Below, piece by piece: positions 2,130-20,085 of a stretch of 20,085 bases of DNA. The notes below the pieces were generated by a model. The model had not been told where the DNA came from. It was given only the letters and a program-made list of their open reading frames with translations, and searched no databases. The position numbers were made by a program, and so were the translations under genes. The DNA comes from a virus. The stretch is from IMG/VR virus record IMGVR_UViG_3300042549_001687, positions 1-20,085 of that record. One strand, 5' to 3'. Positions within the stretch are counted from its first letter, which is position 1. Each line of letters starts with the position of its first letter.

Positions 2130-2510
2130 TTAATATGACAATTCCTTTATTTCTATTGTTTTGTAGTTTGTTTGGCCATCTGCCAATAACATCATGTCTT
2201 TATAATTGTTCCATTCAATAATGAACGTCTTATCCAATACTCCATTGTTTAAAATGCGAATTAAACTGTTAATTGCATTAATACTGTAGAATGTATTAGT
2301 TTCTTTTTTGCGATTGATAGAGATTGTGTTACCTAATCGTCTTTCACTAGTACTTACGTTATATATACAAACAACATTGTTAGGAGCTTGAATATAGTAA
2401 TAACATTTCATATTTGCAACATCATCAACACTATACGCTTTATAGATATCTCCAATACTGACTGGTAGTTTATCTAGGTAAGTAAATGTGCAAAGTAGCT
2501 GAGGTCTCAT
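2130..2510 (-). CDS. Hypothetical protein, 126 residues
   Basis: I do not recognise this protein. It begins MRPQLLCTFTYLD, is rich in Asn, Tyr and Ile, has no signal peptide or membrane segment and shows no catalytic motif I can name. Predicted character is mixed alpha/beta with a segment TNTFYSINAINSLIRILNNG near residues 75-95. Its ATG overlaps the upstream stop as TAATG, and no Shine-Dalgarno is present, so it is probably coupled to the small gene before it. It ends 132 bases before gene 32 and may close the small-gene cluster 3676-2130. Coding potential is supported by the overlap and the clean packing; function is unknown. Confidence 0.72.
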   Translation of the reverse strand: MRPQLLCTFTYLDKLPVSIGDIYKAYSVDDVANMKCYYYIQAPNNVVCIYNVSTSERRLGNTISINRKKETNTFYSINAINSLIRILNNGVLDKTFIIEWNNYKDMMLLADGQTNYKTIEIKELSY

Positions 2511-2713
2511 TATGATTTGCTAAGTTTCTTTTTAGCGTTGTCTAATGCCATTTGTTTGGCTTTAATATCGGCTTGTAATGCTGCCTTTTGTGCTGATAGT
2601 ACTGCTGGGTCTACTGTATCTTCTTCTTTGATGTTCTTACGCTTCATACTCTTCTCACGAAGTATACTTGCTACCTCCTCACGAATCATTTTAACTAGTT
2701 CTGACTTTTTCAT
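2510..2713 (-). CDS. Small protein with the shared MKxSE N-terminal motif
   Basis: This 67-residue, highly charged helical protein starts MKKSELVKMIREEV, nearly the same as the N-termini of the two genes upstream and related to that of the gene at 12971-13282. The rest is a Lys/Ala/Gln-rich probable coiled coil (about residues 37-67: AQKAALQADIKAKQMALDNA). The reading frame is open further upstream to 2800, but the ATG at 2713 is preferred because it puts the motif at the very N-terminus as in its siblings and has GGGAA 4-8 bases before it. An ATG at 2722 that overlaps the upstream stop (TAATG) would add only MGT. The I-R-E at residues 10-12 fits the (L/I)-x-E rule of T4 prohead protease gp21; a role as an internal head protein is a hypothesis. 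Confidence 0.74.
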   Translation of the reverse strand: MKKSELVKMIREEVASILREKSMKRKNIKEEDTVDPAVLSAQKAALQADIKAKQMALDNAKKKLSKS

Positions 2714-2721
2714 TGTTCCCA

Positions 2722-3105
2722 TTATTGCATACGTAAAATCTGCTGACATGCTCTGACTACACCAGACGGAAATGTATTTCGGCTTACAATAAAAGTACAC
2801 AGTGCAAATATGTTTGTACTGGTGGTGTCAGTTAAAGCTGCTTTAAGCAAAGACTCAAATTGTTTTTGTGCGGATGGAAGTAGCTTGTCATATGAAGTTT
2901 GCATTTCTTGTTTAGGTATCTTTGCCCATGCAGCTAATACTTCAGCTTCTTCATCCAACTCTTCCATATAAGCATCAAATTTATCAAACAAACCACCCAA
3001 TGGACGAGCATTTTTATTAGAGTGGCTTATTATACGACTTTCGTATTCGTTTACTACTTTTCTAACCTCTTCACGGATTAGTTTTCTAAATTCTGATACT
3101 TTCAT
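2722..3105 (-). CDS. Small protein with the shared MKxSE N-terminal motif, 127 residues
   Basis: The N-terminus MKVSEFRKLIREEVRKVVNE matches that of the gene upstream (3107-3676) at both protein and DNA level: 36 of 41 bases are identical between 3065-3105 and 3636-3676. After residue 20 the two proteins diverge entirely. The remainder is mostly helical and soluble, with an acidic stretch (YMEELDEEAEVLAAWAK) and a Ser/Thr-rich C-terminal third. I recognise no enzyme motif. It begins one base after the upstream stop (TAA-A-ATG) without a Shine-Dalgarno, so translational coupling is likely. A modular tag fused to unrelated bodies suggests a targeting or processing signal rather than a shared catalytic function. 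What the body does is unknown. Confidence 0.83.
   Translation of the reverse strand: MKVSEFRKLIREEVRKVVNEYESRIISHSNKNARPLGGLFDKFDAYMEELDEEAEVLAAWAKIPKQEMQTSYDKLLPSAQKQFESLLKAALTDTTSTNIFALCTFIVSRNTFPSGVVRACQQILRMQ
3065..3105 (-). repeat. Repeated coding module for the MKxSE tag, copy 2
   Basis: These 41 bases are identical at 36 positions to 3636-3676. Both encode the first 13-14 residues of neighbouring, otherwise unrelated proteins. A weaker third copy begins the gene at 2713. Confidence 0.8.
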
Positions 3106-3106
3106 T

Positions 3107-3676
3107 TTATTTTGTGCTTTTTTTAGTCATTCGTAGTACTGCAATGGATAGTATAGTTATCACAAAGAATGCAAAGAAAGCGTACATACCTAGCTTAAAC
3201 CAAATACTCGCTTCAGCTGCTCTGGCTCCATATAAATCAGTCATCACCTTCATAACATCAGACTCAGCCATACCTTGTATTGTTTTATAATACCATTGAT
3301 TAAAGGATTGATCTATATAACTGCCAGCAGATCCTATTGCAGTTATACCACTAAACAACCCTCCTCCAACACCCAACTTAGCACCAACCATTGCAAACTT
3401 CCTTACCTTGTCTACAAAACCTTCTGATATTTGTTGTGATTGTGTTTCTAAATCCTTTTGTGCTTTGCTAATCGAATTTGGCTGTATAGGTTGTACTTTC
3501 AACTTGTCAATATTAATAAACTGTGCGGCATTATCGTAGTTTTTAGTAGCTGCTTCTGTTGCTGCACTTTTAATTCTATTTAGAAAGTCCCCAAGTTTGC
3601 CTTCATTGAGCTGTTGCTCATATACAACTACTTGAACTTCTTCGCGGATTAGTTTTCTAAACTCTGATGTTTTCAT
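3107..3676 (-). CDS. MKxSE-motif protein with hydrophobic segments, 189 residues
   Basis: It begins MKTSEFRKLIREEVQVVVYE, the shared tag, followed by a helical region (LGDFLNRIKSAATEAA) and a Gln/Ser-rich linker. A glycine-rich hydrophobic stretch lies at about residues 93-118 (GAKLGVGGGLFSGITAIGSA). A clear transmembrane helix lies at about 162-182 (LGMYAFFAFFVITILSIAVL), followed by a basic tail RMTKKSTK. A membrane-active protein carried in the virion, or an inner-membrane protein, are both possible; I cannot assign a function. A promoter-like AT-rich motif lies 10 bases before its ATG, so it may head a transcription unit continuing through the two small MKxSE genes to the gene ending at 2130. 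There is no Shine-Dalgarno. Confidence 0.83.
   Translation of the reverse strand: MKTSEFRKLIREEVQVVVYEQQLNEGKLGDFLNRIKSAATEAATKNYDNAAQFINIDKLKVQPIQPNSISKAQKDLETQSQQISEGFVDKVRKFAMVGAKLGVGGGLFSGITAIGSAGSYIDQSFNQWYYKTIQGMAESDVMKVMTDLYGARAAEASIWFKLGMYAFFAFFVITILSIAVLRMTKKSTK
3636..3676 (-). repeat. Repeated coding module for the MKxSE tag, copy 1
   Basis: This is the first of the two most similar tag-coding stretches (36 of 41 bases shared with 3065-3105). Differences are mostly at third codon positions, which suggests selection on the peptide. Confidence 0.8.
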
Positions 3677-3686
3677 TATTTGGTTG

Positions 3687-3700
3687 TTTAATATAAATAT
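3687..3700 (-). promoter_or_regulatory. Recurrent AT-rich promoter-like motif
   Basis: The coding strand reads ATATTTATATTAAA, ending 10 bases before the ATG at 3676. The same 14-mer is found at 17772-17785 and close variants at 13293, 14447, 15020, 17436 and 18758, each before a gene that has a real intergenic gap. I infer a phage-specific (late?) promoter element. Confidence 0.5.
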
Positions 3701-3706
3701 GTCCGT

Positions 3707-4990
3707 TTACTGTAAACACTTGTAATTACTACCTGTTTTTATTTTAAACGGAAAATGACTTGGTATCACTTTGTTTAAAGACTCTTGTAATAATTCACAT
3801 CTATCTTTTGGTAAATCGAATAGGATACTATCGTATGTGTATAGTATTGGCACAATATCTTTATCCAATGTTTTAAACAACTCACTAAGCATTGTTACGT
3901 TTTGCTCTGTCTCATACATCTGAATAAAGTAGTTAAACAGCGTATATACAGTTATATCTTGATAGTTAGCCAATGTAAGTCTTCTGCCTGATATAGGACT
4001 TTCTACATACCCACTACTATTAGCTTCTCTCCAGATCTCTTGTGCTAATGCCTCAATAGATGCAAAGAAAGGTATGTGCATGTATTGTTGTTGTATCCCT
4101 CCATATATCTGTCTAAAGGTCATCTCTTTAGCTTTCTCAATATCCTCTTGTGTTGGTGTTTGAGTATTGCTATAGTGTTTAGCTAAGTGTTCATATACAT
4201 TTTCACCTTGAAAGTCATATCCGATTAAAGATGCAATTAGTCTTGGGTGATATGAATTAAAGTCAATCTCAACTAAAGTACCTAGTCTATTTACAAAGCA
4301 GTTTCTAGTATCATCCTCTTTATTTAAAGCTGCAAAATTTATACCACCAAATCTATTACTTGGTCTTCCAGTTGTTGTGTAATAGTTGTATTGTGTGTAA
4401 CATGAGTTACCAACTCTACTAAAGGTTTTACTAAAGCGTTCTTCAAATAAAGTAGGATCAATACTCAAGCCATGTCTTTCAATATTATAAAACACGTTTT
4501 GTAGTTGGTGTTGATAGAATGATAGTCCTGCTTGTTCGTCCTTAATCCATATGTCGCTGAAGATGCTTAAAGCAATCTCTTCATGCTTAAGTAATGGCAC
4601 TAAATCGTTTATCTTGTGGCAGTTTTGGTATTGTCTAGTGTAATGATTGATTACTCCTGGAGTATCTAATTCGTAAGGTTTGTTTGTGAATAGGTAGTAT
4701 TGCATTTGAACATCTACGTAGCTATCTGTATTGTATCCACAATACTTGAGTAGCAATATGTCATAGCAATACACCTTAGAATCTTTTAAGAAATCTAAAT
4801 CAGATATGTTTAGTATTCCGTCAGGATGTCCATTACTAATTGTGTATGCTTCTTTTGATTGGGTATCGATTACAACAAATCCTATAATTGGATTATTGCA
4901 CCTATGAAGTCTATCATCCTTTTTGATAGGATATAAGAACACAGACTTATTCTTTAGGTTTTGTATTTGTTGTATAGTATCTACGATCAT
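3707..4990 (-). CDS. Compact family A (Pol I-like) DNA polymerase
   Basis: This 427-residue protein carries a divergent Pol I-type polymerase domain. The TxGRPSNRFGGINFAAL segment at about 206-222 corresponds to the TGR...N.Q motif. Motif A is LVEIDFNSYHPRL (239-251; metal-binding D243). Motif B is AKEMTFRQIYGG (287-298), with K288 and Y296 at the positions of the O-helix Lys and Tyr. Motif C is YTYDSILFD (384-392, D387). In motif A the usual Glu of DYSQIELR (steric gate) is replaced by His. The N-terminal 150 residues keep traces of a 3'-5' exonuclease fold (VYCYDILLLKYCG at 73-85 and VDVQMQYYLF at 92-101) but lack the DxE motif, so proofreading is probably lost. I chose ATG 4990 over an upstream TTG at 4999. 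Its place between virion genes and small tagged genes is unusual. A role in replication or repair with UvsX and gp32 is likely. Confidence 0.84.
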   Translation of the reverse strand: MIVDTIQQIQNLKNKSVFLYPIKKDDRLHRCNNPIIGFVVIDTQSKEAYTISNGHPDGILNISDLDFLKDSKVYCYDILLLKYCGYNTDSYVDVQMQYYLFTNKPYELDTPGVINHYTRQYQNCHKINDLVPLLKHEEIALSIFSDIWIKDEQAGLSFYQHQLQNVFYNIERHGLSIDPTLFEERFSKTFSRVGNSCYTQYNYYTTTGRPSNRFGGINFAALNKEDDTRNCFVNRLGTLVEIDFNSYHPRLIASLIGYDFQGENVYEHLAKHYSNTQTPTQEDIEKAKEMTFRQIYGGIQQQYMHIPFFASIEALAQEIWREANSSGYVESPISGRRLTLANYQDITVYTLFNYFIQMYETEQNVTMLSELFKTLDKDIVPILYTYDSILFDLPKDRCELLQESLNKVIPSHFPFKIKTGSNYKCLQ

Positions 4991-5021
4991 GTAGAACAAT
5001 ATACATACTTTTAAGTTAAAA

Positions 5022-5588
5022 TCAAACGAGAGTAATTCTAGCGTATTCCAAGTAATTTCTTATAGCGTAGTTTATACTTGGTACTGTTCCAGAGGCAATG
5101 TATATTTGATACTGGTTGTACTTGGTTATACTTTGTGTTGATCCAGTAAGTTTCCACTCTATCGATGTGTAGGAATGAATACTTCCATCAATACCACCAG
5201 CTTTGTTTATTTGATTAAACTGTGCTGAATCTATCTCTATAGCATAGCTTTCACTATCTTGTATTTTTTCAACAAAGTATCGAGAATCTACTCCTACTGA
5301 GTATACTTGTTCGTTTGGTTTATATAGGTATGGCTTTGGATCAACATAGCTTAATACTTTTGGTTTAAATCTAAACGCTCTATCGTAGATGTAATGTTCT
5401 GGATTTGCAAAGTACCTTTGTAGAGGTTGTGCATTGTCATTAGGTGTAGGTCCTGTTTTAGCAACATTGCCATCATAATGGTACTCTCCAACATAGTTTA
5501 TGCCTCCGTAACTAAACTCACCACCTTTTGTGTAAAGGTAGATGTTGTCATTTTTTCTTACGCCATATTCACTAGTTAGTTTTGCCAT
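5022..5588 (-). CDS. Probable virion protein, 188 residues, function unknown
   Basis: A beta-rich, tyrosine-rich protein (KNDNIYLYTKGGEFSYGG, then VGEYHYDG and a TGPTP turn) without membrane segments. Proteins with this sort of N-terminal pattern occur among structural genes of T4-like environmental phages, but I cannot name a family. The C-terminus (YQIYIASGTVPSINYAIRNYLEYARITLV) looks like a packed strand/helix end. Its ATG overlaps the stop of the hub-like gene as TAATG, so it is probably translated by coupling and made in similar amounts, which points to a baseplate or tail-tip component. It is the last gene of the long tail operon before the polymerase. Confidence 0.78.
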   Translation of the reverse strand: MAKLTSEYGVRKNDNIYLYTKGGEFSYGGINYVGEYHYDGNVAKTGPTPNDNAQPLQRYFANPEHYIYDRAFRFKPKVLSYVDPKPYLYKPNEQVYSVGVDSRYFVEKIQDSESYAIEIDSAQFNQINKAGGIDGSIHSYTSIEWKLTGSTQSITKYNQYQIYIASGTVPSINYAIRNYLEYARITLV

Positions 5589-7966
5589 TATGGTAAGGTT
5601 ATAGGATTGCCATTTGGATCAAACAAAATTCCTCCTGTGTTTGGTATTGAGTTTGTTGTAGGTGGAGTGGTTGCTATTGGGTTTTGATTATTACTCTGTG
5701 CAGTAATCGATACAAATGAGGTCACTCCTAATAAATTTGATGCAGTGTTGATCACCTCTACTGGACGTTCCTTAATTGGTTGAGGTTTCATTCTTGGTAT
5801 TGTGTTAATCTGTGTTACCCAACCTGATGGATTAATTGTATGTTCAACAGAAGTAACTTGCCAGTCATAGGTATCTCTTATGTTTTCAGGAATACGATTG
5901 CAAGTTATAAGTTGACCAAATCCAAAACCACCTATACCATCTATTGTTAGACTCAACTCAAATGGTAATGGTTGTCCTGCACAATGCTGATCATCTCCTT
6001 TATACAGACTATCTGCATACTCTTGTCTTAGTAAACTTGCTGCTTGATTTGTTGACTCATCTGTTACACCTTTCTTCTGAAGTTCCTCCATAGTCTCTCT
6101 AAAAGTTTTCTTTACTTGATCTGGACTTTTACATGGTTCACATTCACTATATTCCAAAGGCTTTCGAGCTAAGTTTGTATAAAACTTTGAGTTTACTAGC
6201 ACTCCAATTTGAAATGGTCTAAGACTTGCTGCTTGGCAGGGATTTTTTGGATCGGTACTTACTGCCATTGGTAGCTCTTTTGTACTTTTATAGTTACCAG
6301 AGTACAGAGCTTGAGTCTTCATGGCTGAAGTCATTTTCATGTTGAAGCTCATATCTCTTAATATGGACCTTCTTGTCTCTTTGTCATTTTGTGTTAAAAT
6401 CTTGCCAGGAAAATCGTATACTTGTACTTTTTGATTTCCTACACCTGGGAATTTAATGTCTACTACTGAGAGTTTGGGATACTTAAATTCTTCATCCTCG
6501 TTGTTGGTTATTACTTCAAATTCCCATAAATCACCACAAACACTGTTTATCTCGTTTAGTACATTTGTAATAAAAGTTTTTACTTTAAAGTCTCCTGTCT
6601 TAGCATCCTCTACTGCATTCAATTGCTTTAGTAACATGATAACGTTTAGTCGAATTTTAGATAGCATTACACCGCCCTTATCACCTTCTTTAACTATTGC
6701 TGAGGGTATGCCTTCTAGCGAATTTTGATTGTCGTTGTCTAGTAAATATCTTGCTAGTGGTGTACCTGGAATAATACATACTCGAGGATCAGTTGATTCT
6801 AACAATCTATGGTATGATAATATAACACGACTACTGTCGAGACATCCGTTTCTAAAAAGTCCATTATTGTCTACAGGAAAGCAGTATAGATTTACCGCAG
6901 CTTCAAATGCAGCCCAAGTCATATAAACTTCATCTGTGCCTGCTCCAAAGAAACTTGTAAAGACACTTCCAATTGCTCCAAGTAAACCACCACTACCACC
7001 ACTTGCATCTCTTACATCTCCCGTGTATTGGTGAACCTCAAAAGAAACATCTTCAGGATCTCCTCCCAATGCTCGGGTTACTTTTTTAAGATTTTCTATT
7101 CCAGTAAATGCTTGTAAGCCGTATTGATCTCTATACTCTGCTCGCATTTTACCTCTAGTGCTTGTTCGATTCTTTGTGTTTGCTAATTGGAATAAATAAT
7201 TATATAATCGAGATCTGTGTTCGGAAGCTTTTTTATCTTCCTCACCTTTTATTTCTTGTACACACTTGCTACCTAGACTAGGTGGGTTAGTTGTTGAATC
7301 CACACAAGGAGTTTCAGTAGATCCTCCAATAAGAGCTTCTGCAGCTGATATTACTTCCACACTGCAAGTCCAGTATTGTCCTTGTGTTAAACTGTAATTA
7401 AAGTTAGTAACCAATCCTTGTAGACCCTCATAGTTTGGGTTTGTTCTAGTCTCTCGTAACATACTACTATTAGCAGTATTATCAGTTTCAGAATTGTTGA
7501 TAGTGATATCTGGCATACGGAATCCCCACTCCACCCTAATACTCATTCCAGGAATAAACAAACATTTTTGTAATTCTAGTAACTGATCATCATCATAAGC
7601 TATTATAGATATAGTGGTCTTTCTTGTTGTTCCTAATTCACCTTGTTTTGTTATTTTAACTTCTGTTACTATTGGATAAGGTGAATATGTTGTTGGATCA
7701 TACAATGGTGCACCAACACCAACCTGTTCATTAGCTAACTGCTGTCTTGATCTTAAAGTACTATTAATTCTGTTATCATATCTTATACCTTCGTTAGTTA
7801 TGGGATTAAGCAAACTAGCCACTCTACATTGATCACACATACTCGTTATACGAATTTGTGGATGAGCTCCTTGAATCTCTGTGAGGTATAAAACGTTTTT
7901 TGCACGCTTATCTAACTCCTTCTGAGTATTTATTGGTACTTGCTTTTTACTAAACGGGTTAGTCAT
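5588..7966 (-). CDS. Large baseplate hub-like protein
   Basis: The 792-residue protein looks like a gp27/gpD-type tail hub protein. The N-terminal domain has the typical strands PIVTEVKITKQGELG followed by the helix DDDQLLELQKCLFIPGMSIRVEWGFR (about 127-153). Near the end, residues around 710-735 carry YDWQVTSVEHTINPSGWVTQ, a pattern like the V-x-H-x(5-8)-W-x-T signature that closes hub proteins of this fold. Between them is a long insert. Two CxxC pairs (C44/C47 and about 609/612) plus other cysteines could bind a metal ion. The C-terminal 50 residues are Asn/Thr/Pro-rich. It sits between the LysM-like baseplate protein and a small virion protein. An exact T4 counterpart is not certain; wedge or hub-accessory roles are alternatives. 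Confidence 0.7.
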   Translation of the reverse strand: MTNPFSKKQVPINTQKELDKRAKNVLYLTEIQGAHPQIRITSMCDQCRVASLLNPITNEGIRYDNRINSTLRSRQQLANEQVGVGAPLYDPTTYSPYPIVTEVKITKQGELGTTRKTTISIIAYDDDQLLELQKCLFIPGMSIRVEWGFRMPDITINNSETDNTANSSMLRETRTNPNYEGLQGLVTNFNYSLTQGQYWTCSVEVISAAEALIGGSTETPCVDSTTNPPSLGSKCVQEIKGEEDKKASEHRSRLYNYLFQLANTKNRTSTRGKMRAEYRDQYGLQAFTGIENLKKVTRALGGDPEDVSFEVHQYTGDVRDASGGSGGLLGAIGSVFTSFFGAGTDEVYMTWAAFEAAVNLYCFPVDNNGLFRNGCLDSSRVILSYHRLLESTDPRVCIIPGTPLARYLLDNDNQNSLEGIPSAIVKEGDKGGVMLSKIRLNVIMLLKQLNAVEDAKTGDFKVKTFITNVLNEINSVCGDLWEFEVITNNEDEEFKYPKLSVVDIKFPGVGNQKVQVYDFPGKILTQNDKETRRSILRDMSFNMKMTSAMKTQALYSGNYKSTKELPMAVSTDPKNPCQAASLRPFQIGVLVNSKFYTNLARKPLEYSECEPCKSPDQVKKTFRETMEELQKKGVTDESTNQAASLLRQEYADSLYKGDDQHCAGQPLPFELSLTIDGIGGFGFGQLITCNRIPENIRDTYDWQVTSVEHTINPSGWVTQINTIPRMKPQPIKERPVEVINTASNLLGVTSFVSITAQSNNQNPIATTPPTTNSIPNTGGILFDPNGNPITLP

Positions 7967-7970
7967 AACT

Positions 7971-8270
7971 TTATTTGTTTAATTCCTTATAGTCTGATAG
8001 AATTTGAAGTATGCTTGCAGGTATTCGTAGTTGTTGGTTTGGTGGGATCGTCATTGTGCCTTTTCCAATTCCATTGGCTTCTGCTATTATCCACCAATAA
8101 CCTACACTACCATAGTAATTATTTGCCAATAAATCAAGCCTATCTCCTGGTGTTGTTCTGACATAAATGTCATCTACACTTCTTGGTATAGGTGGATAAA
8201 GTGTTGGTTTAACAACTGTTTTACCACTATCATCTTTTTTTGTTGCTATATTGTCGTATCTGTTTGTCAT
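7971..8270 (-). CDS. 53: LysM-like, gp53-type baseplate wedge protein
   Basis: This 99-residue protein carries a LysM-like fold over its C-terminal two thirds. The segment DIYVRTTPGDRLDLLANNYY is followed by GSVGYWWIIAEANGI and the closing motif MTIPPNQQLRIPA. T4 gp53 and small tail proteins of many myophages share this layout; in T4, gp53 joins wedges around the hub. I chose ATG 8270, one base after the upstream TAG (TAG-T-ATG), over an in-frame start at 8330 that would overlap the upstream gene by 59 bases and add an unlikely leader. The stop lies 4 bases before the hub-like gene. The symbol is by analogy with T4. Confidence 0.78.
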   Translation of the reverse strand: MTNRYDNIATKKDDSGKTVVKPTLYPPIPRSVDDIYVRTTPGDRLDLLANNYYGSVGYWWIIAEANGIGKGTMTIPPNQQLRIPASILQILSDYKELNK

Positions 8271-8271
8271 A

Positions 8272-10479
8272 CTATGCAAATGGTATAAGTCCTGCTGTTG
8301 GTACTGCACTGCCATCACCAATACCAACAATAAATCTAAAGTCCATAGAAACGTCTATAATTTGTGGTAATTGTTTATCTATATCCCAAGCATACTCAGC
8401 CATCTGTACATCATACTTAACTGAGTTTACTGCTATTGGTGTGTTTATGTACCATTTTCCTAAAGTAAAACTGCATATAGGTGCTTTCATCATTGTTCCT
8501 TCTGTTCTAGGAGCTGTAGGAATAGATGCCACCCTTACTAAACTTTGTAGTTTACCGTAGATAATATCCATGTCTTTGCTTGATAAAGCTGGTACTTTGA
8601 AAGCTATACTGCCTGCTCTCACAACACCTCTATAGGAGTGTATGGTTTCTAACCTGTTTAGTAGTTTGGTGTCTTCCCAAGTATTTGTCCAACTATCACT
8701 AAAATTAGTAATATAAGATCTAAACACAATAGGATTACTTGATCCTAATGGTCCGATTTTTAAAGTAACGAAGTCAGATTTACGATCATCATTAACTACT
8801 GCATTTAATGGACTTCTTTGTTCTACTGAACCATTTTTAGTTATGTAAGTATCTGGTGTTGTGTCATCAATATACTTAACTGTAAACACTCCATTAGCTC
8901 TGCTATCTGATCTAAGAAGAGTTCTAAAATCTGTTCCAATTGTGTTTGGGGTGGTTTCTTCTGATTTTGTTCGTATTTGCTTATAAGTTAAAGTTTGATA
9001 GTCTGAACCTATATCACTCAAACCATTAGTAGCTAGATTATTGGCACTATCTCTCTCCTCGTAGTAAAATTGCTGTGTACCTCCTCTTTCAGTATCATCT
9101 ACTGCATTATTGGCATTAGCTAGTGGTATAGAGTCTCCATCCTCAATAATATCATTAAACGTCCTTGCTACTGGATCTTTTCCTGCTTCACCTAGTTTTG
9201 TATAATCTACTCCTTTAGCAATTAAATCATCACTTGGATTTGTTAGTTTGGACATGTAAGTCTCAACTTCACTTTTATAGCCAGAATTAGATCCGCCTAT
9301 GCTTAGTGAAGTTTTAATACTATCTTGGAAATATGTTGAACCTTCTTTTGTTATAGATCTAGGTATTCCAGAACTACCGTGCTTCACTGTTGGTGAGAAT
9401 ACTGCTAATGCTCTATCAGCTGCATATCTCAAGGACTTAAGTACTGGAAAAGTGTACTTAGGCTCAAATGTTATCTGATTGAGTTCTGGTGTAGGGTATT
9501 TCTTTTCTGTACTTGGAGTGTCTAAAATAATATCGCTAAACTGAATTACCGTTGCAATTGGTGTACCCAAAACAATATTACCGTCTTGTACTACTGTTAT
9601 AGTTGGTATGCCTAAAGCAATATCACCATCTTGTACTACGGTTGTTGAAGGAGTGCCTAATATCACAGTACCTTTTTGTGGAATAGTGCCAGTCAGTCTT
9701 GATCGTACTACATTTATAACAGACTTTACAATGTTGTTGGTAGTTATAGTTCCTTGTGTTGCCAATATTGCAGCATTAGTTATTGCCAATACTGGATTAG
9801 TTCCAGGTCCTTGTAAAGGAGCTAGGAAAGGCACAGTGATTGCCAATACTGGATTAGTTCCAGGTCCTTGATTAACTCCTAATGGAAGTATTATATTAGT
9901 AAAGGATTGGTAAACTCCATTACCAAAAAAAGTACCTTGCAATAGTAGACTATCATAAGTCGGTACTAATACATTTATGAAAGAACTAGCAACTCCATTA
10001 GCATACACCAATCCCTGACTTAATGTAGGATTAAATATTATTGGGTTTTGACCTCCTTGTGCAATGTTGGTTTTAACTGGTTGTATTATAGTAGTACTGG
10101 TGTGATTAAAAATTCCAAATGGAGTTATTTTAATATAGTCAGTGTTTACATCTGATAAAAAGTACTGAGCTAAGTGGGTTGTGCTTCCTATTTTTGGTTG
10201 CAATAATCTGTCTGCTAAACTAATTGCAGATCTAAATTTTGTATTAATAAATGGTGGAATAGACTCAGGTCCTTTTACCATTCCTTTTAGTATAGCACTA
10301 TTTTGCTCAACAGCATTTGGAAGTGTTTTTAATAAAACACTTTCTAGTTCTTTGGATGGCTTAGCTGGTTGTAAAAGGATACTACCTTGATTTACAGCTT
10401 TTACTTTGGCTGGCAACTCATTGTGAATGCTACTATTGTAGCGTTCTTCTAAACTTATAGTTTTAAATAGTTTTGCCAT
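8272..10479 (-). CDS. Large virion protein with internal beta-repeat region
   Basis: This 735-residue protein follows the tape measure gene. Residues about 140-320 form a low-complexity, beta-prone repeat region with many QG turns. The 12-residue unit QGPGTNPVLAIT occurs twice (204-215 and 223-234). Three 15-residue units of the type LGTPSTTVVQDGDIA run from 274 to 318. The C-terminal 170 residues look globular: FRSYITNFSDSWTNTWEDTK, a helix KDMDIIYGKLQSLVRVA, and a strand-rich end (PQIIDVSMDFRFIVGIG) of the kind found in tail and baseplate proteins of T4-like environmental phages. A baseplate or tail-tip component is most likely from position. I cannot name a T4 homologue. The start has no Shine-Dalgarno and lies 2 bases after the tape measure stop. 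Confidence 0.76.
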   Translation of the reverse strand: MAKLFKTISLEERYNSSIHNELPAKVKAVNQGSILLQPAKPSKELESVLLKTLPNAVEQNSAILKGMVKGPESIPPFINTKFRSAISLADRLLQPKIGSTTHLAQYFLSDVNTDYIKITPFGIFNHTSTTIIQPVKTNIAQGGQNPIIFNPTLSQGLVYANGVASSFINVLVPTYDSLLLQGTFFGNGVYQSFTNIILPLGVNQGPGTNPVLAITVPFLAPLQGPGTNPVLAITNAAILATQGTITTNNIVKSVINVVRSRLTGTIPQKGTVILGTPSTTVVQDGDIALGIPTITVVQDGNIVLGTPIATVIQFSDIILDTPSTEKKYPTPELNQITFEPKYTFPVLKSLRYAADRALAVFSPTVKHGSSGIPRSITKEGSTYFQDSIKTSLSIGGSNSGYKSEVETYMSKLTNPSDDLIAKGVDYTKLGEAGKDPVARTFNDIIEDGDSIPLANANNAVDDTERGGTQQFYYEERDSANNLATNGLSDIGSDYQTLTYKQIRTKSEETTPNTIGTDFRTLLRSDSRANGVFTVKYIDDTTPDTYITKNGSVEQRSPLNAVVNDDRKSDFVTLKIGPLGSSNPIVFRSYITNFSDSWTNTWEDTKLLNRLETIHSYRGVVRAGSIAFKVPALSSKDMDIIYGKLQSLVRVASIPTAPRTEGTMMKAPICSFTLGKWYINTPIAVNSVKYDVQMAEYAWDIDKQLPQIIDVSMDFRFIVGIGDGSAVPTAGLIPFA
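9526..9660 (-). repeat. Three tandem 45-base coding repeats
   Basis: Residues 274-318 of the large virion protein form three 15-residue units (LGTPSTTVVQDGDIA, LGIPTITVVQDGNIV, LGTPIATVIQFSDII). DNA copies are diverged but aligned at a 45-base period. The pattern suggests beta-solenoid coils or a fibrous stalk. Confidence 0.75.
9782..9813 (-). repeat. Perfect 32-base direct repeat, copy 2
   Basis: This is identical over 32 bases to 9839-9870, with a period of 57 bases (19 codons). It encodes QGPGTNPVLAIT-type units inside the large virion protein. Perfect DNA identity implies a recent duplication or gene conversion. Confidence 0.9.
9839..9870 (-). repeat. Perfect 32-base direct repeat, copy 1
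   Basis: First copy in transcriptional order of the repeat at 9782-9813. The 25 bases between the copies encode the VPFLAPL spacer. Confidence 0.9.
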
Positions 10480-10481
10480 TT

Positions 10482-12971
10482 TTATCTACTAGTGTAATTA
10501 ATTTCTCTGCTTATAATTGGTGCTAATACATGACCAATTGCTTTACCGTCGATTGTAACATTACCTTTCTTATTAAGTATATTGGATGCAAGAGTTTCAA
10601 CAGCCGATATTAACTTGTCTAGTTTATCTTCTTTTTCTTCTCCACCCCCATTAGCTATATTGCTTAGAGCGTTTCCTATCTCTTGGAACTTAGGTGCTGA
10701 TGCAGCTAGTTGAAGAAGTTTGTCTATTACTGGAGGAGTTGCATTATTCATTTTTCCTAATGCTGTAGTTATCATATCTAAGCCTGTACCTACAGCACCT
10801 ATTCCAATACCCATACTACCCAATGCAACTATATCCTTTAATCCTGCCAATCCTTCTTTTTGTTTTGCTAGATTTGATAAGTTTTCAGCAAATACACCTA
10901 TACCTAGACCTAAAGCTATCAAAGCTAGTATACCAGCTCCAAATATATAAGCACCAATACCAGTCATCATAATAGCTCCTAATGCAAATACTGATACTCC
11001 AAACTCCAATAATCCTGCTCCAGCTGCTTTCACAGCTTCCATATCTAAACCTATCAATTGCTTCATTGCATAGGTAAATGGTATTAAAGCGACACCTAAA
11101 AATGCTAAAGCAACTGATCCGGCAATTATTTCTCCTGCTACTTGACTCAATCCCGCAGTTACTAAGGACATTGCTGTTAATGCTACTAATCCTATACCAA
11201 CAGCTGGCCATTCAACAGTAGCAAACTGTTGAAATGCTTTTGCTGATACATACAATGCTGCTGCTACGATTAGTAATGCTGCTGCACCTTGTAACATAGA
11301 TCCAACATTTAGTTTACCTACTGCACCTGCACCACCTACACCACCAGCTCCACCTCCTGCAGGAATCGTATTACTCTTCATCTTTAGAGCATTTATCAGC
11401 TTATACTGCGTTACCATTTGGAAAAGAGAAAAAAGTAATGGGCCTAATTCACCAGTACCCTTCTTAACAGCTCCTAACCAATCCACAGTAGTACCTAAAA
11501 GTTCTTTGAAATAACCAGCACTTTCTCCAGAATATTTATTCGACTCTACCTGTGCATCTAACGCTTTTTGTAATTGCTCGGTAGTCATACCTGCTGATTT
11601 AGCTAAGGCTTCTTGTTGAACCATGTTCATTCTACCAAACTCAGCTTGTCCTCCTACATTTCTTAATACTTCTCTGGTTGCACCTTCTATATCATGGTTG
11701 AGTGCCATCTCCCGTGCTTTGTCTAGATTTATTTCTCTACCCAATAATACTGAAGCTTCCATTTGAGCATTAATACTGCTTTCAAAATCAAGCAATCCTT
11801 TTGCCATACTGACTGATGTACTAAGTTCAACACCCATCTTATGCAATTCAATTACTGCCTTACCAAACGCTACTGCTCCTCTACTGCCAAATAATGCCAT
11901 GGCTTCTGTGTTCTTGGCCATGTCTTTCATTATCTTACCTGGAGCTATTCCTTGCAGTTTAGCCATTGCACCTACCTGCTTCATTGAGTTTGCTGCAGAT
12001 TGTGAAGTTTCGCCTGGCATTTGGGATAGTGAAGCGTTTAAGGCTAAAGCCTCTTCTCCAGATATTCCAAGCTGATGAGCCATTTCGCCTAGATTATCAA
12101 CAAGTTCACTACTTAAGGCATTTACGTTACCATATTGCTCAATGATACCATTCATTACACCTTTATTGTCTGCTAGTCCTACTAAACTTTTAAAAGAAAA
12201 ACTCTTAATTCCAGCTTCTACTGCTTGTGCTGATGATAGACCTTGTTTTTTGAATTCTTTGAAGGTATCTGTAGCTTGTCCTATCTTCTCTATCATTTGC
12301 TGAGCAAAGATAGCTTTTGCCAGTTCTGGTGTTTTAAGTTGATCTATTATCTTTTCTGTGATACCAAACTGACTCAAAAGGGCACTGTTAACCTCTTTTA
12401 TTTTTTCAGCATACGCATCCTGCTTTGCTTGGAGAGCTGCTTTTTCTCTTTCTGCTTTTAATTGCTCGAGTCTTTCCTTAGTACCTTCTTGTATTAGTGT
12501 GTTTTCCTTTTTTAGACTGTCTATACGCTCGATGATTGCTTCTGTTTGACCTCGAAGTAGGTACATCAGATCCTCTGCCTTTTCAATCTGTTCTTTGTCA
12601 GCGTTCTGAGCTTTAAGTCGTGAGACCAGGTCCTCAGCCCTCTGAACTGCTGCATATTTCGCAGCCCTATTCATATCCAGCTGGTTAATTAAGGAGTTAT
12701 TCTCCATTTTTGCTTGCTTTGCAAGCAATCTAAGTTCTACTTCTTTTTGATCTAAACCAGTTCTTAATGACAGAGCTCTAACCCTATCATTAAATGCTTG
12801 AGTTTCTTGCTCTTTGGTATAATCTTTCATCTGAGCGGTCAGATCTTTCAAGAAGGATTTTGCAGAAAAAGCGTCATCAGTCCCTTTTTTAAAGGCACCA
12901 GCAATAACCTTTGAAAGCTTACTCTCTAAGCTATCAAGGTCAATAAGATCATCTGCTCTTTTTTTACCCAT
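10482..12971 (-). CDS. Tail tape measure protein
   Basis: The 829-residue protein has the architecture of a myophage tape measure. A long N-terminal helical/coiled-coil region (about 45-210) is rich in Lys, Glu, Gln and Ala. A middle helical region (about 210-520) includes an Ala/Met-rich stretch. A block of hydrophobic helices follows at about 555-710 (LQGAAALLIVAAALYVSAKAF, FGVSVFALGAIMMTGIGAYI, GILALIALGLGIGVFA), and then a short soluble tail. Such proteins fix tail length during tube assembly and may enter the host envelope on injection. It lies shortly downstream of sheath, tube and the gp26-like chaperone genes, the usual order. T4 gp29 has 590 residues, so if length scales as usual this tail is longer. 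The ATG overlaps the upstream stop (TAATG). Confidence 0.82.
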   Translation of the reverse strand: MGKKRADDLIDLDSLESKLSKVIAGAFKKGTDDAFSAKSFLKDLTAQMKDYTKEQETQAFNDRVRALSLRTGLDQKEVELRLLAKQAKMENNSLINQLDMNRAAKYAAVQRAEDLVSRLKAQNADKEQIEKAEDLMYLLRGQTEAIIERIDSLKKENTLIQEGTKERLEQLKAEREKAALQAKQDAYAEKIKEVNSALLSQFGITEKIIDQLKTPELAKAIFAQQMIEKIGQATDTFKEFKKQGLSSAQAVEAGIKSFSFKSLVGLADNKGVMNGIIEQYGNVNALSSELVDNLGEMAHQLGISGEEALALNASLSQMPGETSQSAANSMKQVGAMAKLQGIAPGKIMKDMAKNTEAMALFGSRGAVAFGKAVIELHKMGVELSTSVSMAKGLLDFESSINAQMEASVLLGREINLDKAREMALNHDIEGATREVLRNVGGQAEFGRMNMVQQEALAKSAGMTTEQLQKALDAQVESNKYSGESAGYFKELLGTTVDWLGAVKKGTGELGPLLFSLFQMVTQYKLINALKMKSNTIPAGGGAGGVGGAGAVGKLNVGSMLQGAAALLIVAAALYVSAKAFQQFATVEWPAVGIGLVALTAMSLVTAGLSQVAGEIIAGSVALAFLGVALIPFTYAMKQLIGLDMEAVKAAGAGLLEFGVSVFALGAIMMTGIGAYIFGAGILALIALGLGIGVFAENLSNLAKQKEGLAGLKDIVALGSMGIGIGAVGTGLDMITTALGKMNNATPPVIDKLLQLAASAPKFQEIGNALSNIANGGGEEKEDKLDKLISAVETLASNILNKKGNVTIDGKAIGHVLAPIISREINYTSR

Positions 12972-13282
12972 TATTTAAAGTACTTACCAAAGCTTCCTTT
13001 TCGAACATCATATACTAATAGGTCAGCAAATTTTTGTGGATCTTGTTTGATTAGACTAGTAGCTCTTTTTGTAAATTCTTTCTCACTCATATTAAACTTT
13101 TTTGATAGTGCTTTAAAGTCTGGTGAGTTGATGATTCTAGCATACTGATAGTCTGCTGCATGGTTGAAATGACCCTTTACAAAAGTCTCAGCTTTGTCTA
13201 ATAACCAGCTAGTTATACTCTCCTCAATTCTATGATTTTGGATTTCGTCGTGTATAATCTTATGTATATCTGATTTTTTCAT
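12971..13282 (-). CDS. Small MKxSE-like protein before the tape measure, 103 residues
   Basis: It starts MKKSDIHKIIHDEIQNHRIE, a more distant version of the tag on the three small proteins at 2510-3676. The I-R-E at residues 10-12 is here I-H-D, but an I-E-E occurs at 19-21. The body is helical and basic, with ITSWLLDKAETFVKGHFNHA and a C-terminal helix-rich part (FADLLVYDVRKGSFGKYFK). I recognise no domain. It starts a new transcription unit: an intrinsic terminator lies 41 bases upstream and a promoter-like motif 10 bases upstream. It overlaps the tape measure start (TAATG), so its product would be made at a coupled rate. A tail assembly helper or packaged protein are both possible. Confidence 0.78.
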   Translation of the reverse strand: MKKSDIHKIIHDEIQNHRIEESITSWLLDKAETFVKGHFNHAADYQYARIINSPDFKALSKKFNMSEKEFTKRATSLIKQDPQKFADLLVYDVRKGSFGKYFK

Positions 13283-18774: not shown

Positions 18775-19443
18775 TTAAAGACCAAATCTGCCTTTTAATG
18801 CATTATAGTTTTGTGTTACTTCGGTACTAGTTAATGATTTATTATAGATGTGCATTGAAGATATGTTTCCATTAAAAAAATTTGAAGTACCAGCATATGC
18901 ACCCAAATAAAAATTATTAGCATTACCAGTTACGCTACCACCAAAAGTAAGACTAGCAATTGAAGCTGAGTTAGAGTACAGAGTGACGTTTGTACTACTT
19001 CTGACAGCTACTATATTATACCAAGTATCTACACTAAAATTACCATGATTTCCAAAAGCGGAATAATTCCAATTGGAACCATCAGCATATGATATTTTGT
19101 TACTAAAAAAAGCAATGCTAAAATGACTGTCTTTTGCAATAGGTATGTGCGTTATGTTGTTTACCTTTAGTTTTACCCAAAAAGATAAACTAAAATTACT
19201 TCCTGTCAGCAAAGAAAAAGGTCCAAAGTTGACTATATCATTTGTACCGTCAAACACAATAGATCCTTTATTGTTGGAATTAAATGTTGGTCCATTTGTT
19301 AATGTACCATTATTATTCCCACTTCTACTAACATCTCTCCAAGTAGTTCCTGTCTTAGGGTAAGAATCCATCTTAGCAGCATCTACATTTAGCATTAGAC
19401 CATCTAAAACCATACCTCCGTAATATGCTATTCTACCTGCCAT
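18775..19443 (-). CDS. LamG/concanavalin-like virion surface protein
   Basis: This 222-residue protein is a single LamG-like jelly-roll domain. The start of such domains, GLMLNVDAAKMDSYPKTGTT with W-RDVS and NGTLTNGPTF, is followed by the core signature GSIVFDGTNDIV, a strand FSLSFWVKL, the pair WYNIVAVR and VTLYSNS, and the closing IYNKSLTSTEVTQNYNALKG. LamG domains bind glycans or proteins; in phage virions they act in receptor binding or surface decoration. I chose ATG 19443, one base after the upstream stop (TAA-A-ATG), because it gives MAGRIAYYGGMV; an alternative at 19455 adds four residues. The gene upstream is a paralogue, so a tandem duplication is evident. There is no signal peptide. 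Confidence 0.82.
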   Translation of the reverse strand: MAGRIAYYGGMVLDGLMLNVDAAKMDSYPKTGTTWRDVSRSGNNNGTLTNGPTFNSNNKGSIVFDGTNDIVNFGPFSLLTGSNFSLSFWVKLKVNNITHIPIAKDSHFSIAFFSNKISYADGSNWNYSAFGNHGNFSVDTWYNIVAVRSSTNVTLYSNSASIASLTFGGSVTGNANNFYLGAYAGTSNFFNGNISSMHIYNKSLTSTEVTQNYNALKGRFGL

Positions 19444-19444
19444 T

Positions 19445-20085
19445 TTATAATCCAAATCTGCTTTTTAAAGCGTTATAGTTTTGTGAAATCTCAGCTGCTG
19501 TGAGAGCTTTATTATAAGCTTTTACTATAGCAATTCTTCCGACCCAAGGTGTTCCTGTGTAGCCAGTTCCTATAGTTATGTTGGTTGTTGTGTTAGCAAG
19601 TACACCATAAGGATTTGACATGGTAGCTGTGTTACTATTATTTACGTACCATCTTACTTCACTTGCATTTCGAGTTACAGCTAACATATTCCATCTACCT
19701 GTAGGAGTAGTAGATGAGTTTAGGAATGTATAAGGGCTATTGTCAGTACCGGAATTACCATAGTAATAGCTTATATTACTACCTCCTTCAAACGTCCAAG
19801 TTCCAGCTCCACCATATGCTTGATTCCATATATTCCTTCTACCTGTTGTAAAATCATGATATTCCCAAAATAAAATAGTTTGAGCTGTTGACCAGCTAGC
19901 CATGCTAGCAGCGTTATAACTTACAGAAACATAGTCATTAGACCCATCAAATACTATACTTCCTCCATTTCTACTATCAAAGGTAGGTCCGTTTACTAAT
20001 GTACCATGATTTTTATTTCCACTTAAATCAGTCCAAGTAGTACTTCCACTAACATAAGACCTATGGTTAGCAGCATCTATATGCA
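19445..20085 (-). CDS. LamG-like virion protein, 5' end outside the window
   Basis: The frame is open from the window edge to the stop at 19445 (about 212 residues visible). Codons from 20083 read HIDAANHRSYVSGSTTWTDL and continue with SGNKNHGTLVNGPTFDSRNG and GSIVFDGSNDYV, aligning with the paralogue downstream from its residue 22 or so. The ATG at 19903 lies inside the domain and is not the real start. The C-terminus (VKAYNKALTAAEISQNYNAL, then KSRFGL) matches that of the neighbour (NALKGRFGL). Only the first 20 or so residues are likely to be missing if the layouts agree. Function is as for the neighbour: carbohydrate or receptor binding on the virion surface. Confidence 0.8.
   Translation of the reverse strand, partial: HIDAANHRSYVSGSTTWTDLSGNKNHGTLVNGPTFDSRNGGSIVFDGSNDYVSVSYNAASMASWSTAQTILFWEYHDFTTGRRNIWNQAYGGAGTWTFEGGSNISYYYGNSGTDNSPYTFLNSSTTPTGRWNMLAVTRNASEVRWYVNNSNTATMSNPYGVLANTTTNITIGTGYTGTPWVGRIAIVKAYNKALTAAEISQNYNALKSRFGL

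Follow-up and report, generated by a model that had tools for sequence, protein, structure and literature searches.

Why should four small proteins that otherwise have nothing in common start with a similar N-terminal sequence? This question is raised by the window analyzed here, a complete 20,085-base IMG/VR virus fragment (IMGVR_UViG_3300042549_001687, positions 1 to 20,085), in which four genes on the minus strand, starting at positions 3676, 3105, 2713 and 13282, encode proteins carrying this N-terminal tag. An earlier note, made from the sequence alone, had proposed that the tag sends cargo into the prohead and is removed there after I-R-E at residues 10-12. All four N-termini were confirmed, and the bodies behind them are indeed unrelated: in BLASTP comparisons from residue 22 on, the best E value was 1.9, and the full-length proteins match via the tag. 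We consider it likely, with a probability of roughly 0.84, that the tag is a capsid-targeting sequence (CTS) of the T4 type whose sequence and scale are new and which would be cut by a prohead protease of family S77. The proposed prohead-targeting and cleavage leader is supported by comparisons with many related phages, but not the proposed position of the cut.

The N-terminal helix, about MKxSE[FL]RKLIREE, would dock unrelated late proteins on the prohead core or scaffold. A gp21-type (S77) protease would cut after [LIV]-x-E at the end of the leader, usually at residue 19-20 and, with small indels, at residues 17-25, whereby the cargo would be freed in the head and the leader would leave. Where domains are fused with a site between them, a single targeting leader would load several proteins. 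Sequence comparison shows the tag family, the junction site, leader swapping, the matching site of the capsid protein, the presence of the protease in related phages and a gene block in two phages, while docking on the scaffold, cleavage itself and the ejection of cargo into the host are presumed by analogy with T4. Since the mature parts of internal head proteins change quickly and seldom match known families, such proteins are hard to recognize. If the end of the leader can be read, the packaged cargo of uncultivated T4-like phages can be listed, and its mature N-termini predicted, from sequence alone.

The tag family

For the tag search, a degenerate DNA pattern was applied to viral contigs and to bacterial and archaeal genomes. 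It was detected in at least 119 stretches of viral contigs and in a single stretch among 84,980 bacterial and archaeal genomes, the latter on a 3.2-kb contig (L282) encoding a tagged protein of a cargo family known also from phage contigs. The tag is therefore virtually absent from bacterial and archaeal genomes. Closed open reading frames (ORFs) of at least 45 amino acids (aa) that start with ATG and bear a relaxed tag, drawn from the loci collected, yielded a set of 200 tagged proteins, whose bodies cluster into 139 unrelated groups and whose function is unknown for nearly all. With a position matrix built from 139 tags (threshold 10 bits), 0 to 11 tags were found in each of 11 phage genomes, nine of which reach the threshold at least once; the reversed tag, which served as control, gave no start at this threshold in the window and the 11 genomes. 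The 139 tagged proteins matched 22 PHROG and 15 Pfam families (E <= 0.01). Since each family was matched by one member only, no shared cargo function emerges.

A tblastn search of named phages with the 20-residue tag, a query so short that it can hardly reach significance, gave nothing. Named relatives were chosen through their sheath protein and searched with the tag profile. Flavobacterium phage immuto revealed two matches (a gene at 102,294, MKKSELVKLIKEELNIQDNG..., and one at 113,188), Microcystis phage Mel-JY01 one weak match (E 0.013) and the uncultured LR756508 eight, mostly weak, while none was detected in RM378, HTVC008M, LIS04 and P-HM1. In L038, G017 (10.7-18.2 kb; L444) and G023 (10.9-18.7 kb), different tagged genes are arranged in tandem, up to about ten in a row. 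The C-termini of the 565-aa protein of L063 and the 8331 protein of L262 are formed by a tag-like helix (VRRIIRKVIQRELEK and SIIRKLIRKEINETIQRYRNNR, respectively), perhaps a C-terminal version of the tag.

It is conceivable that not the peptide but a mobile 5' DNA cassette has spread, i.e., that gene starts were recently copied by recombination and encode a peptide without a role. The DNA of the 3676 and 3105 tags is identical at 36 of 41 bases, as the earlier note had counted (27-29 of 41 in the remaining pairs compared), and codons for the same residue are identical at a frequency of 0.73 within a locus versus 0.64 between loci. By contrast, the agreement between loci at codon positions 1, 2 and 3 is 0.75, 0.87 and 0.65 (residues 1-13). 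As agreement is better at the first two positions than at the third, it is the peptide that is conserved. Together with the virtual absence of the pattern from bacterial genomes, this makes the cassette the least credible of the explanations considered. The higher synonymous agreement within loci suggests occasional local copying.

Position of the predicted cleavage site

The 139 unrelated bodies have residues 1-20 in common. Column information was 2.37 bits at E20 (E in 69%), fell to 0.57 bits at residue 21 and stayed at about 0.3 thereafter. Residue 18 is L, I or V, residue 19 is variable and residue 21 favours A. An [LIVM]xE motif ends at residue 20 in 93 of the 139 tags, at residue 19 in 19 and at residue 17 in eight. 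Twelve tags have none within residues 15-24, but at least four of them possess one around residue 25 (KINE/D, LRE/G, LTE/S and LKE/A; the slash marks the predicted cut). As background, the motif occurred in 3-7% per five-residue bin between residues 30 and 59. Moreover, A, G or S is commoner after the leader site than after sites that occur by chance within the bodies (Fisher P 5e-8). These data suggest that the leader is cut after about residue 20, not residue 12.

The latter position had been put forward due to the I-R-E at residues 10-12 of three window proteins, which is present as described, as is the I-E-E at residues 19-21 of the fourth. E12 is found in 99% of the 139 tags, and some short leaders end with LLKE or LIKE thereabouts, e.g., MTRIKLKGLIKE/A in L337. 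However, the residue following a cut at this position (P1') would be glutamate in 139 of 139 tags, while A, G, S or V stands there in the capsid proteins, and conservation continues to residue 20, with junctions to conserved bodies at 20-25 and cargo families breaking at 20 or 25. A gp21-type cut after residue 12 is thus very improbable and was rejected as the main site because of the P1' glutamate and the conservation up to residue 20.

Leader swapping and fused cargoes

The strongest evidence for the apparent swapping of leaders comes from a cargo family whose body begins with PVGPDGNKI (PVGPDG family; 44 loci, 31 distinct contexts). In 31 of 31 distinct members, [LI]-x-E directly precedes the body, with L (24) or I (7) at P3, eight residue types at P2, E (31) at P1 and mostly A (27) at P1'. 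The leaders are of at least three types, since besides the long tag there are MxPxxFKxLLKEFAPxxxLxE, the 12-residue leader mentioned above for L337 and long upstream domains. A search with the 13282 protein retrieved 36 distinct ORFs, the window's own included. In this family, the mature domain directly follows [LIVM]-x-E in 32 of 34 anchored members, with varying spacing.

For all families except the 18-member baseplate family and the YMFF family discussed below, the distance between site and junction was two residues or less for 208 of 218 tag leaders, 56 of 65 short leaders of other types and 21 of 28 junctions within proteins. Control shifts of +5 to +30 gave 7-17 of 218, 0-5 of 65 and 0-2 of 28, respectively. 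Upstream shifts resulted in higher counts, reaching 155 of 217 at -10, owing to the I-R-E-E within the tag. Six homologs in this comparison are devoid of any leader.

Several cargoes appear to be fused. A 257-aa protein (L193) comprises three domains and carries SLTE/, LQE/ and ILKE/ close to where they join. Tagged single proteins in L061, L195 and L260 correspond to the first, second and third domain, respectively, and the third also exists untagged in L262 (MAFRR...). In a 464-aa protein of G007 (L233), the tag is accompanied by four near-identical linkers (KESVIKE/A, NEAVINE/N, TESVLKE/A and TESVLKE/D), and L019 and L037 encode the last domain on its own as a tagged protein. L320 (427 aa) combines two domains known singly with tags. 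A strict census of the linker motif in 2,515 ORFs revealed two or more linkers in nine (1.8 expected by shuffling) and four in only one. Strict repeated linkers are thus rare, so that the case for fused cargoes rests on the domain comparisons. A large protein with the start IAIYPGRFQPFGKHH is encoded by L237 (911-aa ORF at 8375, G007) and in G014 (54935-56728). In G007 it has two L-x-E linkers and may be head cargo too. By position alone, an immuto gene annotated as NadR and a cytidylyltransferase-like gene of Mel-JY01, both upstream of the terminase gene, look like the gene of this protein.

Whether there is a general cargo-loading code in many uncultivated T4-like phages, consisting of interchangeable leaders of 12-25 residues and [LIV]-x-E junctions, by which the protease loads, trims and dismembers multi-domain cargo, is in our view an evenly balanced matter. 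If so, the tagged genes would be a readable list of effectors that are packaged into the head and probably injected, and the phages would possess a polyprotein system processed by the capsid protease inside the head. The leaders would also offer ready-made parts with which proteins could be loaded into phage heads.

Capsid protein, protease and gene neighbourhood

The gp23-like capsid proteins of these phages contain a conserved segment (...NQAKQLVTE/A, LIKE/G, LISE/A, IVSE/A), from which a cut can be predicted. All 21 distinct capsid N-termini in which the motif region was found fit the [LIV]-x-E rule; 28 distinct ORFs had been matched, seven of which, several of them fragments, were not counted. 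The residue after the site is A, G, S or V. At the leader junction, [LIV]-x-E stands before a small residue as well, so that leader and capsid protein have the same type of site. Scaffold proteins start with MKDLLKE/A, MNKLLKD/A and similar sequences.

The S77 protease was detected in 20 of 39 related records (11 of 19 and 9 of 20), including all five larger than 120 kb, and a gp23-type capsid protein in 11 of 12 records. Nine of nine confident tags (E <= 0.001) in G015 and 14 of 15 in G018 lie within 10 kb of the protease gene. In G015, the order is terminase, portal, tagged genes, protease, tagged genes, scaffold and capsid protein, and it is similar in G018 where listed. Overall, 56 of 118 tags were located no more than 10 kb from the protease gene, compared to 34.9 expected; when the protease was placed at random 20,000 times, 203 placements reached 56.

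Three TGA codons each lie in frame in the prohead protease genes of four tag-bearing phage records, G018 (L212, L277, L442), G024, G032 and G033, and one in the capsid gene of G018. Due to these codons, it is probable that TGA codes for an amino acid in this lineage.

The four tagged proteins of the window

Judged by its matches to UvsX, a gp32-like protein, sheath, tube and baseplate proteins, the window is a fragment of a T4-like myovirus. Its genes are on the minus strand and also gave DNA polymerase and tail-fibre matches. No head gene was among the matches, no S77 protease was found in the 20-kb fragment, and megablast of the window against named phages gave no match. The tagged proteins and their predicted leaders are as follows.

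3107..3676, minus strand: tagged protein of 189 aa with a C-terminal transmembrane stretch (ORF; relative in L200)
3602..3676, minus strand: predicted leader of the 3676 protein, residues 1-25, likely cut QQLNE25/G
2722..3105, minus strand: tagged protein of 127 aa without family match (ORF and family searches)
3046..3105, minus strand: predicted leader of the 3105 protein, residues 1-20, likely cut VVNE20/Y (profile and site position)
2510..2713, minus strand: tagged protein of 67 aa with a coiled-coil-like body (ORF)
2654..2713, minus strand: predicted leader of the 2713 protein, residues 1-20, likely cut ILRE20/K (profile and site position)
12971..13282, minus strand: tagged protein of 103 aa, directly upstream of a tape-measure-like gene (ORF and relatives)
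13220..13282, minus strand: predicted leader of the 13282 protein, residues 1-21, likely cut RIEE21/S (relatives)

With the tag profile (from 139 tags), the four proteins scored 56.5, 49.6, 37.8 and 12.8 bits. Since the reversed tag gave no start of at least 10 bits, the three top-scoring tags are far beyond chance. The fourth (13282) is weak alone, but is secured by the sequences of relatives, e.g., MKKSELHKIIREEIQNHMIEE/G in L011. Instead of residue 12, the likely cut sites are E20 in the 3105 protein, E25 in the 3676 protein, E20 in the 2713 protein and E21 in the 13282 protein. The 3105 and 3676 proteins have V at P3 of the residue-20 site, and the latter also has LNE at residue 25. In L200, a relative of the 3676 protein (body 53% identical, leader MKLSEFKSLIKEEVDLALFEHQLTE/GKISDF) contains HQLTE/G in place of QQLNE/G, and for this reason the 3676 protein is probably cut after residue 25, VYE20 being a weaker candidate. 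A similar extension, EQRLNE/, is present in L037. The ATG at 2713 sits within a longer ORF that opens at 2800. Apart from the tagged genes, two adjacent ORFs at 18775-20083 encode similar adhesin-like domains with the ends TQNYNALKGRFGL and SQNYNALKSRFGL.

Points against cleavage, and a possible uncut helix as alternative

A number of findings weigh against the interpretation as a cleaved CTS. Proximity of tags and protease, clear in some lineages, is absent in others: G007, G013, G005, G004, G006 and G022 have no tag near the protease, seven of 19 records are without any tag within 10 kb of it, and in G002 (69.6 kb) the protease is present while a tag is not detectable. In the window, the tagged genes sit among replication and tail genes with no head genes there; the T4 ip genes, too, lie apart from the head block. 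In two-domain relatives of the 13282 protein, only the second domain is preceded by a site. For the YMFF family, the test of junctions was mixed: its members are tagged in a few phages, and most have other leaders that lack a site. A baseplate-module family of 18 members (L095, L030, L045 and 15 more; immuto record 81525) with 109-122 aa (MKLTELRKVIREEVKAAIQEELKDILLEAV...) shows a very similar N-terminus without any drop at residue 20. These proteins may be tail proteins sharing the docking helix or a convergent look-alike. Finally, two structure models were of low confidence (mean predicted local distance difference test, pLDDT, 59.0 and 56.6), with the tag predicted to be helical.

The tag might also be a docking helix, the alternative given in the earlier note, which stays on and anchors proteins to one partner shared in the virion or during assembly, such as baseplate, tape measure or scaffold. 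The helical tag in the low-confidence models, the near-identical N-terminus of the baseplate-module family and the tape-measure-like gene adjoining that of the 13282 protein would fit such a role. On the other hand, L-x-E remains at the junction despite spacing shifts of 1-5 residues and is kept in proline-containing (FAP) leaders, which can hardly form one helix. In addition, the residue after L-x-E is mostly small, and fused cargo domains are separated by the same site. Because L-x-E moves with insertions and survives in proline leaders, an uncut helix is disfavoured and in our opinion improbable, although less so than a cut after residue 12, and a cleaved CTS is the preferred reading.

Comparison with known systems

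The concept of the CTS, with leaders of 10-20 residues and the gp21 rule L/I-x-E, has been described for T4, where IPI, IPII, IPIII and Alt carry a CTS (Mullaney and Black, as cited in passages of PMC9026906 and PMC5694885). Applying the rule as worded in the relevant part of PMC9026906, the T4 leaders are MKTYQEFIAE/A for ipII and ipIII and 19 residues ending with ...STITE/A for ipI, and the cuts in head proteins are MLKEQLIAE/A (gp22), FLTE/A (gp23) and MAKINELLRE/S (gp24). Features of a CTS found for the tag are one leader on unrelated proteins, an L/I-x-E-type site at the leader end and the same rule in the capsid protein. As far as these passages describe T4, both systems have in common a short N-terminal leader (10-20 residues in T4) on unrelated small proteins and L/I-x-E mostly before a small residue. 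T4 also encodes an S77 protease, a scaffold and a gp23-type capsid protein, as do relatives of the window's phage. In the T4 genome, genes 67, 68, 21 and 22 are located between the portal and the capsid gene. What separates the tag from the T4 CTS is its greater length and different sequence (MKxSEFRKLIREEVRKVLNE/A versus MKTYQEFIAE/A), the number of tagged genes (up to a dozen or more per phage), the swapping of leaders between cargo families and the fused cargoes with internal sites. By eye, the tag and MKTYQEFIAE share no more than the pattern [EK]-[FL]-x(1-2)-[LI]-x-E, a similarity not long enough to demonstrate descent. A literature search, mostly at title and abstract level, that covered the tag, CTSs beyond the known cases and prohead-protease polyproteins brought up no paper dealing with this tag. 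As far as the searches go, the tag family, its spread, leader swapping and fused cargoes are new.

According to passages of PMC5694885 and PMC10052503, propeptides of internal head proteins of phiKZ and SPN3US are cut by gp175 and gp245 (S80), respectively. These N-terminal propeptides are likewise removed from packaged, probably ejected proteins, and the first 15 residues are identical in two paralogs. They differ, in the same passages, by the motif S/A-x-E, a length of mostly 111-254 residues and the other protease family. Phage polyvalent proteins, as portrayed in part of PMC5512222, resemble the fused cargoes in that one delivered polypeptide contains several cargo domains, among them a ParB-like domain, for which a weak match was found in L063. 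For the polyvalent proteins, release via embedded peptidase domains has been proposed there, but a scan of seven long fused proteins here revealed no peptidase domain, and the junctions of the fused cargoes match the site of a separate prohead protease. If the fused cargoes are cut by this protease, they would represent a head-maturation counterpart of viral polyproteins.

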